From: Verrucomicrobiota bacterium
GTDB taxonomy: Bacteria; Verrucomicrobiota; Verrucomicrobiia; Limisphaerales; UBA9464
Assembly: GCA_947471985.1 (NCBI GenBank)
Contig: CANIZL010000028.1
Span: 1-60,828, forward strand
Direction of reading: 5' to 3'
Length of the DNA stretch: 60,828 bases
The notes under the pieces are model-generated. The model was not told the origin of the DNA. It searched no databases and saw nothing but the letters and a program-made list of their open reading frames with translations. Of this stretch, positions 58,093 through 60,428 are shown piece by piece; the stretch's first letter is position 1; each line of letters opens with the position of its first letter. Position numbers and translations under genes: made by a program.

Positions 58093-58186
58093 GTGCCACC
58101 AGTGAAACGGACACCCCGGGCGGCGGTCAATGCCGGAACGCCAGGATCCGGCTTGGATTTCCCGCCTGAAGTGCTTTGCTGCCGGC

Positions 58187-58525
58187 ATGACCCTTTTCGA
58201 GAAGATAATCGCACGACAAATCCCGGCCGACATCGTGTACGAGGACGAGTTCGTGCTGGCGTTTCGGGATCTGCACCCCCAGGCCCCCGTCCATGTCTTG
58301 ATCATCCCCAAGAAGCCCATCCCGCGGATTGGTGAGGCCTCCCTGGCCGATCAGGCATTGCTCGGGCACCTCCTGCTCCAGGCCCAGGTCATCGCGCGCC
58401 AACTCGGCGTCTTTGATTCGGGATTTCGGTTGGTGATGAATCAGGGTCGCGACGGCGGCGAATCCGTGCCCCACCTGCACTGCCACTTGCTGGCTGGCCG
58501 CGCGCTCACCTGGCCGCCCGGTTGA
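58187..58525 (+). CDS. HIT-family (histidine triad) nucleotide hydrolase, HinT-like
   Basis: A 112-residue HIT protein. The triad is VPHLHCHLLAGR (HxHxHxx), and YEDEFVLAFRDLHPQAPVHVLIIPKKPI is the family strand pair. HIT proteins of this size hydrolyse nucleoside phosphoramidates. ATG 58187 (MTLFEKIIARQIPAD) matches HinT starts; the upstream in-frame codons are in the shared intergenic space with the leftward hydrolase gene. Convergent with apbE. Confidence 0.92.
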   Translation: MTLFEKIIARQIPADIVYEDEFVLAFRDLHPQAPVHVLIIPKKPIPRIGEASLADQALLGHLLLQAQVIARQLGVFDSGFRLVMNQGRDGGESVPHLHCHLLAGRALTWPPG

Positions 58526-58552: not shown

Positions 58553-59488
58553 TCAACCCGGGAGTCCGTGATACCATCCCCGGAGCCCGACTCCTAAGCT
58601 CGGCAGTTCCGACAGGAAGGTCGCCCCCGCCACCAGCAAGGCGGTGCTGAGGACATCCGTAATCAGGCCGCTCGGGCCCACCACGGCCGCCCGCCGTGGA
58701 CCTTCGACCGGTTCACCGGTACGCGGATCCAGGATATGCCCGCGCAGGCGGCCTTGGGGATCCCGATGCGTCCGTCCCCAAGTGGCACTGACCGACAAGG
58801 CGGCGTCCCACAGGGGCACCCGCAGCCGTTCCGTGGGCGGCGACGCCGGCGCGTCCGGCGCATCCGCGATTTCGATCCACCATTCCGCGGCGTCCGGCGG
58901 CGAGCCCAACGCCGCCACGGTACTGGTTCCGCCGTGCAAGAGCGCTGACGTCACACCCGCCTCCCGCAAGACCTCCAGCGCCCGGTCCAAAGCCCACCCC
59001 TTGCCGATACTCCCGAGATCCAACTGAATCCCGGGACGATGAAACCGCACCGCCCCCGCCGCCAACTCCACGTCCCGCCAACCCACCAATCCACGCGCCG
59101 TAGCCATCCGGGACGTCCAGTCTCCTGCGGCGGGATCCGCTTCCCGCCAGAACCGCACCAGCGGACCCACCGTGGGATCAAAGGCGTTCCCGGTCCGTTG
59201 CGACCAGTCGCGGGCCGCCACCAACAAGGCAAACACCGGCAGTAAAACGCGGACCGGCGCGCGAGCGGCCCCGGAATTCACTCGAGCAATCTGGGACTGC
59301 GGTCGATAAACCGATAGCCAGTCTTCCACCTCGGCAATTTCCGCCAACGCGGCTTCCCCCGCCGCCCGCAGCGAGGCCTCCCCAAGGCCCGGTTGCCCGA
59401 TCGGCAATACCAATTCAAACCGCGTCGCCATCGCCGCGATCGCCAAGCGCACCGCCGCACCGCCCGGAGAGCAACATGGATCGAGCAC
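58553..59488 (-). CDS. apbE: FAD:protein FMN transferase ApbE, without export signal
   Basis: A 311-residue ApbE-family flavin transferase that links FMN to a threonine or serine of a target protein. Recognisable parts are MATRFELVLPIG, VYRPQSQIARVNSGA, GNAFDPTVGPLVRFW, LDLGSIGKGWALDRAL, LLHGGTSTVAALG, SATWGRTHRDPQGRLRGHILDPRTGEPVEG and LITDVLSTALLVAG. Unlike many ApbE proteins it lacks a lipoprotein signal, so it should act in the cytosol. Possible starts are GTG 59488, GTG 59452 or ATG 59431. It is the last gene in a row with three sulfur-relay-like genes; the flavinylated partner is not in the window. Confidence 0.85.
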   Translation of the reverse strand: MLDPCCSPGGAAVRLAIAAMATRFELVLPIGQPGLGEASLRAAGEAALAEIAEVEDWLSVYRPQSQIARVNSGAARAPVRVLLPVFALLVAARDWSQRTGNAFDPTVGPLVRFWREADPAAGDWTSRMATARGLVGWRDVELAAGAVRFHRPGIQLDLGSIGKGWALDRALEVLREAGVTSALLHGGTSTVAALGSPPDAAEWWIEIADAPDAPASPPTERLRVPLWDAALSVSATWGRTHRDPQGRLRGHILDPRTGEPVEGPRRAAVVGPSGLITDVLSTALLVAGATFLSELPSLGVGLRGWYHGLPG

Positions 59489-59502
59489 GCCGACAGCTCG
59501 GG

Positions 59503-59694
59503 TTACCAGACCGAGATCGAGTCCGCCGCAAAAATCTGGTCGAGGAGCGCGTCGTAATTCGGCGGCTCAGCGGTCGTCAAATCCGCCACCTGAACGACGA
59601 AATCAGCGGCCCCCGCCTGGGTTTGCTGCTGCTGGATCAACCCGGCCACGAGGTCATCCGCCGGAGCCGTCAAAACGTGCAAAATGGTTCGCAT
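59503..59694 (-). CDS. Small DsrH/TusB-like protein (tentative)
   Basis: A 63-residue protein. The opening MRTILHVLTAPADDLVAGL and the closing DALLDQIFAADSISVW with a terminal Trp resemble the ends of TusB/DsrH, which also ends in Trp, but the protein is shorter (TusB has about 95) and the usual cysteine is absent. Its position between a DsrE-like gene and apbE supports the call more than the sequence does. It may be inactive as a sulfur carrier but keep a structural role. Confidence 0.5.
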   Translation of the reverse strand: MRTILHVLTAPADDLVAGLIQQQQTQAGAADFVVQVADLTTAEPPNYDALLDQIFAADSISVW

Positions 59695-59736
59695 GGTGAG
59701 GCAATTCGCGCTGGGTTTTGGAAAAATTCGTCGGGG

Positions 59737-60099
59737 TTAAAAGCGCAGGACGGCGGTGGCGCGGCTGGCCAGTTCCGCCAGTTGTTGGTCATCGATGGCC
59801 ATCGAGTCGTGCGACGGCACCCCGAGTTCCGCCAGTTCCGGCGCGCCCGCCTGCACATAAATCGGTCGACCGGCCTCCACCAGCAGCGGCAGGTAGCGGG
59901 TGTAATTGTCCTCGTCGCGGAGTTCGTCGACCCACTCCCCCAGCGCCCGGATGGCCGGTCCCCGGAGATAGACGGTGATGGCGACCTTTTTCCAGGCACC
60001 CAGACCGGCCGCAACGCGGATCGCCTCCGCCGGGCGGGCCGTCGTCCGGGGATCGCTCGTCAGCAAAAACAACAGGGAAGGTTGAGCCGCGGAAATCAT
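59737..60099 (-). CDS. DsrE/DsrF-like (TusC-type) protein
   Basis: A 120-residue DsrE-fold protein. LLFLLTSDPRTTARPAEAIRVAAGLGAW is the family's first strand-helix unit, and VAITVYLRGPAIRAL the second. No cysteine is present at the usual carrier position, so like TusC it is probably a structural partner. ATG 60099 is used; a TTG at 60111 overlapping the previous stop is an alternative start. Middle member of the trio upstream of apbE. Confidence 0.7.
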   Translation of the reverse strand: MISAAQPSLLFLLTSDPRTTARPAEAIRVAAGLGAWKKVAITVYLRGPAIRALGEWVDELRDEDNYTRYLPLLVEAGRPIYVQAGAPELAELGVPSHDSMAIDDQQLAELASRATAVLRF

Positions 60100-60107
60100 G
60101 GGAACGT

Positions 60108-60428
60108 TCAATTGAAACTCACCATCCGGTCCGTGCTGGCGAACATGTCACTGAGGACCGTCAGACCGACATAAGTCGCCCGCGCATCCACCGGAAGCCC
60201 CCGCTGCTGAGCCCCGTAAGCGCACGCATAAAGCTTCAGTCCGGAAGTGCACAGCCGCTGCAACTCTCCGTCCCCCACCCCAGCCACGGCATCATCCAGA
60301 CAGTAGAAGTACGTATCCAGTCCGCGCCCCAGCGCGGCCGCGGCCAATTCCACGCCGCGGCGAAACCCCGGCCGTTCCGGACCACAGGTCAACAAGAGTC
60401 CAAATTTTCGCCCACGTAGATCCGCCAT
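60108..60428 (-). CDS. DsrE-family (TusD-type) sulfur-relay protein
   Basis: A 106-residue DsrE-fold protein. FGLLLTCGPERPGFRRGVELAAAAL is the phosphate-loop-like first unit, GLDTYFYCLDDAVAG the second, and LKLYACAYGAQQRGL contains the conserved carrier cysteine in the place where TusD/DsrE holds its persulfide. ATG 60428 (MADLRGRKFGLLL) is the natural start. It overlaps or abuts the next gene, so the three small genes and apbE are transcribed together. A tRNA 2-thiolation or sulfur-trafficking role is suggested by family only. Confidence 0.75.
   Translation of the reverse strand: MADLRGRKFGLLLTCGPERPGFRRGVELAAAALGRGLDTYFYCLDDAVAGVGDGELQRLCTSGLKLYACAYGAQQRGLPVDARATYVGLTVLSDMFASTDRMVSFN

Follow-up and report, generated by a model that had tools for sequence, protein, structure and literature searches.

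A conserved DsrE-type gene trio of Verrucomicrobiota, probably a persulfide carrier, next to an ApbE flavin transferase gene

Near one end of a 60,828-nt contig from a Verrucomicrobiota genome, the whole of which was analysed and is called the window below, four open reading frames (ORFs) lie end to end on the minus strand. They encode two small proteins named DsrE1 and DsrE2 in this work, a third protein of 63 residues, and an ApbE-family flavin transferase; a first-pass annotation of the sequence had claimed these four adjacent ORFs, and all of them are indeed present and tightly packed on that strand:

60108..60428, minus strand: DsrE1, 106 aa, TusD/DsrE-like presumed persulfide carrier subunit; ATG start at 60428
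59737..60099, minus strand: DsrE2, 120 aa, DsrE-fold subunit in the DsrF/TusC position, no cysteine; ATG start at 60099
59503..59694, minus strand: third protein, 63 aa, in the DsrH/TusB position, no cysteine; ATG start at 59694
58553..59488, minus strand: ApbE-family FAD:protein FMN transferase (PF02424), GTG start at 59488; outside the conserved trio

The GTG start of the ApbE gene follows the stop codon of the 63-aa gene by 14 nt, and upstream of DsrE1 another 400 nt remain before the end of the contig. No Rfam family reaches its gathering score in the window, and NCBIfam returns nothing for the small proteins. A HIT-family gene at window positions 58130-58525 is convergent with ApbE, and in one relative (genome G028, loci L059 and L226) a HIT gene is also found near the ApbE orthologue, there on the same strand.

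The three small genes form a conserved operon, with order and close spacing kept in dozens of genomes, which is more than chance would produce. DsrE1 is present in 46 of 58 genomes of the order, comprising all 35 from the source family and 11 of the 23 from other families. Scanning a single genome for each species, with patterns that favour close relatives, yielded 134 loci, 80 of which were examined: DsrE2 is the next gene in 76 of these (gap of -4 to +84 nt), and in 73 the 63-aa gene follows directly after DsrE2 (gap of -1 to +38 nt). By record title, 78 of the 80 loci come from Verrucomicrobiota taxa (some labelled Akkermansia), one from an Omnitrophota genome, and one from a record named only as a bacterium. 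When 100 loci were pooled and 14 with identical DsrE1 DNA removed, 86 distinct loci remained, of which 82 carry DsrE2 and 78 the full trio in order; at least three of the eight loci lacking the full trio (L150, L171, and L181) stop at a contig end. The first-pass annotation had proposed checking whether the genes occur together in other genomes, and for the three small ones these 78 of 86 loci give a positive answer. Among 288 genomes sampled from the phylum there were eight DsrE1 matches, namely the source genome, six genomes of one other family, and one weak match (E 9.4e-4), and a scan of viral sequences found no relative.

The window copy of DsrE1 scores 18.7 bits against the DsrE family (PF02635), below the cut-off of 22.7, and among its relatives all 14 aligned rows match that family, with a best E-value of 2.2e-8. 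The protein has four cysteines, of which two are conserved, Cys43 (in YCLDDAV) and Cys69 (in ACAYGA); both positions hold a cysteine in all 79 rows of an alignment built from the 80 sequences minus two over-long ones plus the window copy, and one distant row aligned separately (G053) has leucine at position 43. By hhalign, Cys69 is paired with the cysteine of TusD, if weakly (E 0.012), and the DsrE1 profile also matches a single TusB sequence weakly (E 0.043). On this sequence evidence we regard DsrE1 as a TusD/DsrE-like presumed persulfide carrier with Cys69 as its putative carrier cysteine and with a second, nearly invariant Cys43, which E. coli TusD does not possess. The first-pass annotation was right that the carrier cysteine lies in DsrE1 and that the two other small proteins of the window have none, but it had credited DsrE1 with one cysteine instead of four.

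DsrE2 is more diverged, its window copy scoring 15.9 bits against PF02635 (cut-off 22.7) and five of ten rows of relatives matching, the best at E 0.0012. Its AlphaFold2 model (pLDDT 94.7) retrieves YchN (E 1.2e-5) and DsrF of A. vinosum (2hy5_B, E 5.6e-5) in Foldseek, and in VIA-align it superposes on YchN (1jx7) with Z 14.9, on TusC (2d1p_B) with Z 13.3 and an rmsd of 2.4 over 111 residues, and on DsrF (2hy5_B) with Z 12.4, so that the predicted structure is securely that of the DsrE fold. As the top fold match is YchN, the fold by itself does not single out DsrF/TusC, and it is the position of the gene that suggests this assignment; in hhalign the DsrE2 profile matches single TusC and TusB sequences weakly and at nearly the same level (E 0.024 and 0.027). 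A cysteine occurs in DsrE2 in 33 of 76 loci.

The third protein is predicted with high confidence as a b-a-b-a-b structure (AlphaFold2 pLDDT 95.7), and its C-terminal tryptophan is invariant in 49 rows; a cysteine occurs in 24 of 73 loci. The window protein matches no Pfam family, and DsrH/TusB (PF04077) is matched in none of the 58 genomes and in three of 14 controls. Foldseek returns nothing at E 0.001 for the model (best 0.23), and VIA-align gives generic matches up to Z 6.5, with no TusB or DsrH chain among the 50 matches listed. The hhalign match of its profile to TusB is weak (E 0.095, with ribosomal controls at 0.23-0.57); across the trio, hhalign hardly separates the right from the wrong partner among the E. 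coli Tus proteins, and searching the sequences of solved structures with a profile for each of the three proteins turned up nothing relevant. The C-termini of the three proteins do resemble, by eye and in order, those of TusD, TusC, and TusB, with DRMVSF comparable to DRVVQF of TusD, VLRF to VILRF of TusC, and the final tryptophan to that of TusB, a likeness that is suggestive only. What likens the third protein to TusB/DsrH is its position, this end motif, and co-conservation, and not a family or fold match. The arrangement of TusD, TusC, and TusB proposed by the first-pass annotation finds partial support: its first member through family membership and the carrier cysteine, its second through the fold, and its third through those three points of likeness.

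Set beside TusBCD of E. coli (2d1p) and the type I DsrEFH of A. vinosum (2hy5), the trio shares the gene order D/E, C/F, B/H in a tight operon, the carrier cysteine in the first subunit, the DsrE fold of the second, and the C-terminal motifs judged by eye. It differs in that the source genome contains no match to TusA or to TusE/DsrC, and in its third protein, which has 63 residues against the 95 of TusB and falls outside PF04077.

The fourth gene of the locus is a clear ApbE (180 bits against PF02424, cut-off 25.6) and, as the first-pass annotation stated, it has no lipoprotein signal, neither a signal peptide nor a lipobox being seen by eye. In these respects it is like the cytosolic ApbEs that are already known (PMC12052999); it is unlike them in that no protein with a flavinylation motif was found in the window. 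The first-pass annotation had coupled ApbE to the sulfur relay, guessing at a flavinylated enzyme that uses relayed sulfur or at DsrE-type carriers serving the target of the flavin transferase. The two parts lie on the same strand with a gap of 14 nt, so they are probably co-transcribed in the source genome. Against this, ApbE lies downstream of the trio in none of the 70 loci with at least 1 kb of downstream sequence, and just one of the 86 loci (L176) has an ApbE at all, 1.1 kb away and on the other strand. All 45 relatives that possess DsrE1 have their best match to the window ApbE on a contig other than that of DsrE1 (44-55% identical in 36 of them, the other nine having only weaker, paralogue-like ones among the matches listed), a separation that is weak evidence on its own as these assemblies are fragmented; one genome (G044) has a weaker ApbE on the DsrE1 contig, some 31 kb away. 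The suggested search for the ApbE target motif came back empty as well, D-x-x-[ST]-G-A-[ST] being absent from window frames of at least 100 aa and FMN_bind (PF04205) having no match in the source genome. A partial NqrB/RnfD-like match on another contig was considered as a target and set aside, its 289-aa frame being devoid of a flavinylation-like motif. A search of genome contigs with ApbE gave no relative, and ApbE, flavinylation, and DsrE occur together in none of the papers searched. Functional coupling of ApbE with the trio is rejected, as the neighbourhood is not kept in relatives, and we give that reading hardly any credence.

With ApbE unlinked from the trio in relatives, the joint between them is most likely a rearrangement private to the source lineage. 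An assembly error near the contig end, which lies 400 nt beyond DsrE1 on its upstream side, would also give a joint found in one genome only, and the GC content changes across the joint (0.69 for ApbE, 0.63 for the trio, and 0.62 for the window); but close relatives of both ApbE and the trio exist in the family, and the gap between the two looks natural for neighbouring genes, so that we judge such an error highly improbable. The joint serves as a warning against reading function from adjacency in one draft genome.

Elsewhere the ApbE orthologues keep company of their own. Among 20 such orthologues, AM[AG]TRFE occurs close to the start in 18 and the HGGTS signature in 17; a cluster of Gfo/Idh/MocA-kind ORFs recurs in 11 of the 20 loci and, by a crude motif filter, such ORFs stand directly upstream of ApbE on the same strand in six. 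Pfam confirms the Gfo/Idh/MocA identity for L087 and L103, and an oxidoreductase of this type is a possible partner of the ApbE orthologue. By eye, the oxidoreductase just upstream of the orthologue has a Tat-like leader in L087, L091, L093, L096, L102, and L103.

In E. coli, the sulfur relay runs from TusA through TusBCD and TusE to MnmA, and in characterised three-subunit carriers generally, sulfur comes in from TusA and goes out to TusE/DsrC. The first-pass annotation had advised looking for tusA, tusE, and mnmA, and in the source genome mnmA was found and the two others were not. Neither TusA (PF01206; 11 of 14 controls match) nor TusE/DsrC (PF04358; one of 14 controls matches, E. coli) was detected in the source genome or in the other 34 genomes of its family, the absence being bounded by the 96% completeness of the source genome and by matches that may fall below detection. 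Across the 58 genomes of the order, TusE/DsrC occurs in two, both without DsrE1, and TusA in eight, four of them above the family cut-off. In the two members of the order with DsrC (L227 4216-6707 and L228 5267-7713), its gene is flanked by one for an SQR-like flavoprotein and one for a DsrE-like protein, and an ArsR-like regulator is present as well; judged by eye, this is a cluster for sulfide oxidation.

MnmA is matched strongly, at E 2e-65 or better, by 52 of the 58 genomes, with E 2.1e-75 in the source genome, and four others have weak partial matches only. The trio could accordingly be the local TusBCD, passing sulfur taken directly from a cysteine desulfurase to MnmA for 2-thiouridine in tRNA after loss of TusA and TusE. 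The gene order, the carrier cysteine, and the C-terminal motifs are those of TusDCB, and TusA is less frequent among the genomes with DsrE1 (3 of 46) than among those without it (5 of 12; Fisher p 0.007), although this contrast ignores kinship and half of the eight TusA matches lie below the family cut-off. MnmA, for its part, also has strong matches in ten of the twelve genomes that lack DsrE1, and no recurrent mnmA-like neighbour of the trio was noticed in the neighbourhoods, and we consider this role unlikely, if the least unlikely of the rivals.

The nearest precedent of the trio is DsrEFH type II, here compared by its published description (PMC13293266). As described there, the type II of the YTD cluster in cable bacteria is compact, is missed by sequence tools, and has Cys67 as carrier; sulfur transfer with TusA and to DsrC has been shown in vitro, and the trimer has a predicted mass of 33 kDa. 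The same source describes bacterial type II genes as syntenic with tusA and yeeE/yedE, as mostly from Desulfobacterota and Nitrospirota, and as accompanied by reductive dsrAB in 74% of cases. The verrucomicrobial trio is alike in being compact and diverged in sequence and in having its carrier cysteine at about residue 67-69, and unlike in its setting, the source genome having no match to TusA or to YeeE/YedE, which is matched in 10 of the 58 genomes. A dissimilatory DsrEFH for sulfur oxidation, of type I or of the newly described type II, would agree with the similar position of the carrier cysteine and with the predicted masses of the trio in the source genome (11.4, 13.0, and 6.7 kDa, compared with the 33 kDa of the type II trimer). 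That the source genome also lacks a DsrC match argues against it, as does the main text of the type II survey, in which "Verrucomicrob" does not occur despite 985 type II genomes, and such a function appears very unlikely.

Other systems offer looser likenesses. A plasmid search gave nine records with E-values of 1 or less. Eight of them are haloarchaeal and carry DsrE genes in adjacent pairs; the top match (32.8% identity, E 0.08) is not significant alone. On pNG700 of Haloarcula marismortui (L230 4992-5961), the order is DsrE, DsrE, and an 81-aa gene annotated as hypothetical, and among ten proteins the DsrE1 profile scores best with the first (22.4 bits) and the DsrE2 profile with the second (12.6 bits); all pNG700 scores are low, and that of the 81-aa protein with the profile of the third trio protein is not significant. 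Unlike the trio, the pNG700 pair stands among genes for molybdenum hydroxylase, yqeB, yqeC, selD, and TusA, none of which was noticed beside the trio, in what has been described as a selenium-use locus (PMC2432076). An SQR-TusA-DsrE2 operon is reported for a verrucomicrobial methanotroph (PMC10205796). Verrucomicrobia and TusD occur together in none of the papers searched, and no title on this trio stood among the matches listed.

Three kinds of gene adjoin the trio in a minority of the 86 loci. A glutaredoxin-like gene follows it directly in six (L080, L068, L081, L145, L167, and L193), all six matching PF05768. This family is above cut-off in only three of the 58 genomes, each time directly after the trio, and in the genomes of L080, L068, and L081, searched whole, the gene after the trio is the sole PF05768 match; the source genome has a match below cut-off only, on another contig. 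An A-type Fe-S carrier gene lies within 220 nt downstream in nine loci (L065, L077, L115, L124, L152, L153, L169, L187, and L192; PF01521 confirmed for L115 and L169), and a CheY-like response regulator gene within 200 nt upstream of DsrE1 on the same strand in 12 (L075, L080, L116, L117, L120, L128, L130, L154, L167, L173, L174, and L183; PF00072 confirmed for L167). Most loci have none of the three. DUF4912 genes (by Pfam) and genes that by eye are GH57-, flagellar-, or MFS-like also recur around the trio in some loci; we attribute their presence to clade synteny and do not regard them as partners.

The A-type carrier in nine loci and the glutaredoxin-like gene in six invite the reading that the trio works with these two proteins in Fe-S cluster assembly, either providing the sulfur or regulating its supply. 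The two genes were never found together in a single locus, though, and most loci have neither, which makes a role in Fe-S assembly rather improbable.

We favour, as the probable explanation, that the trio is the verrucomicrobial form of a DsrEFH/TusDCB-type persulfide carrier, operating with neither TusA nor TusE, and that ApbE is an unrelated, private neighbour. In this verrucomicrobial variant, Cys69 of DsrE1 would receive its persulfide sulfur not from TusA but from some other donor, such as a cysteine desulfurase or a rhodanese, and DsrE2 and the 63-aa protein would be the structural remainder of the complex. The sulfur would then pass to an acceptor other than TusE/DsrC, and a thiol reductant may help in the discharge, a part that could fall to the glutaredoxin-like protein where one is encoded and to Cys43 within DsrE1. 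Complex formation and persulfide chemistry, like the donor, the acceptor, and the reductant role, are what we infer, and the scarcity of neighbours, no partner adjoining the trio in most loci, counts against the carrier model. ApbE would have been brought downstream by the lineage-private rearrangement and would serve a different process.

Whether the trio amounts to a third, verrucomicrobial DsrEFH/TusDCB type, with a two-cysteine DsrE, a minimal 63-aa subunit, no TusA, TusE, or DsrC, and glutaredoxin-like discharge, is a more tentative matter, which we place a little short of an even chance. Such a type, if true, would provide persulfide sulfur in the cytosol with a new route. With the trio in every sampled genome of the family and the usual partners undetectable there, the favoured reading would show that a carrier of this kind works in another circuit, and it would give a conserved verrucomicrobial sulfur-handling operon a testable role.

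Six of the DsrE1 matches in the phylum sample belong to another verrucomicrobial family with genomes of 2.2-2.5 Mb (L201-L206), and in these no relative of DsrE2 or of the 63-aa protein was found around the DsrE1-like gene. This solo gene encodes both conserved cysteines in five of the six (L202-L206), and in L201-L205 it is, by eye, convergent with a superoxide dismutase-like gene.
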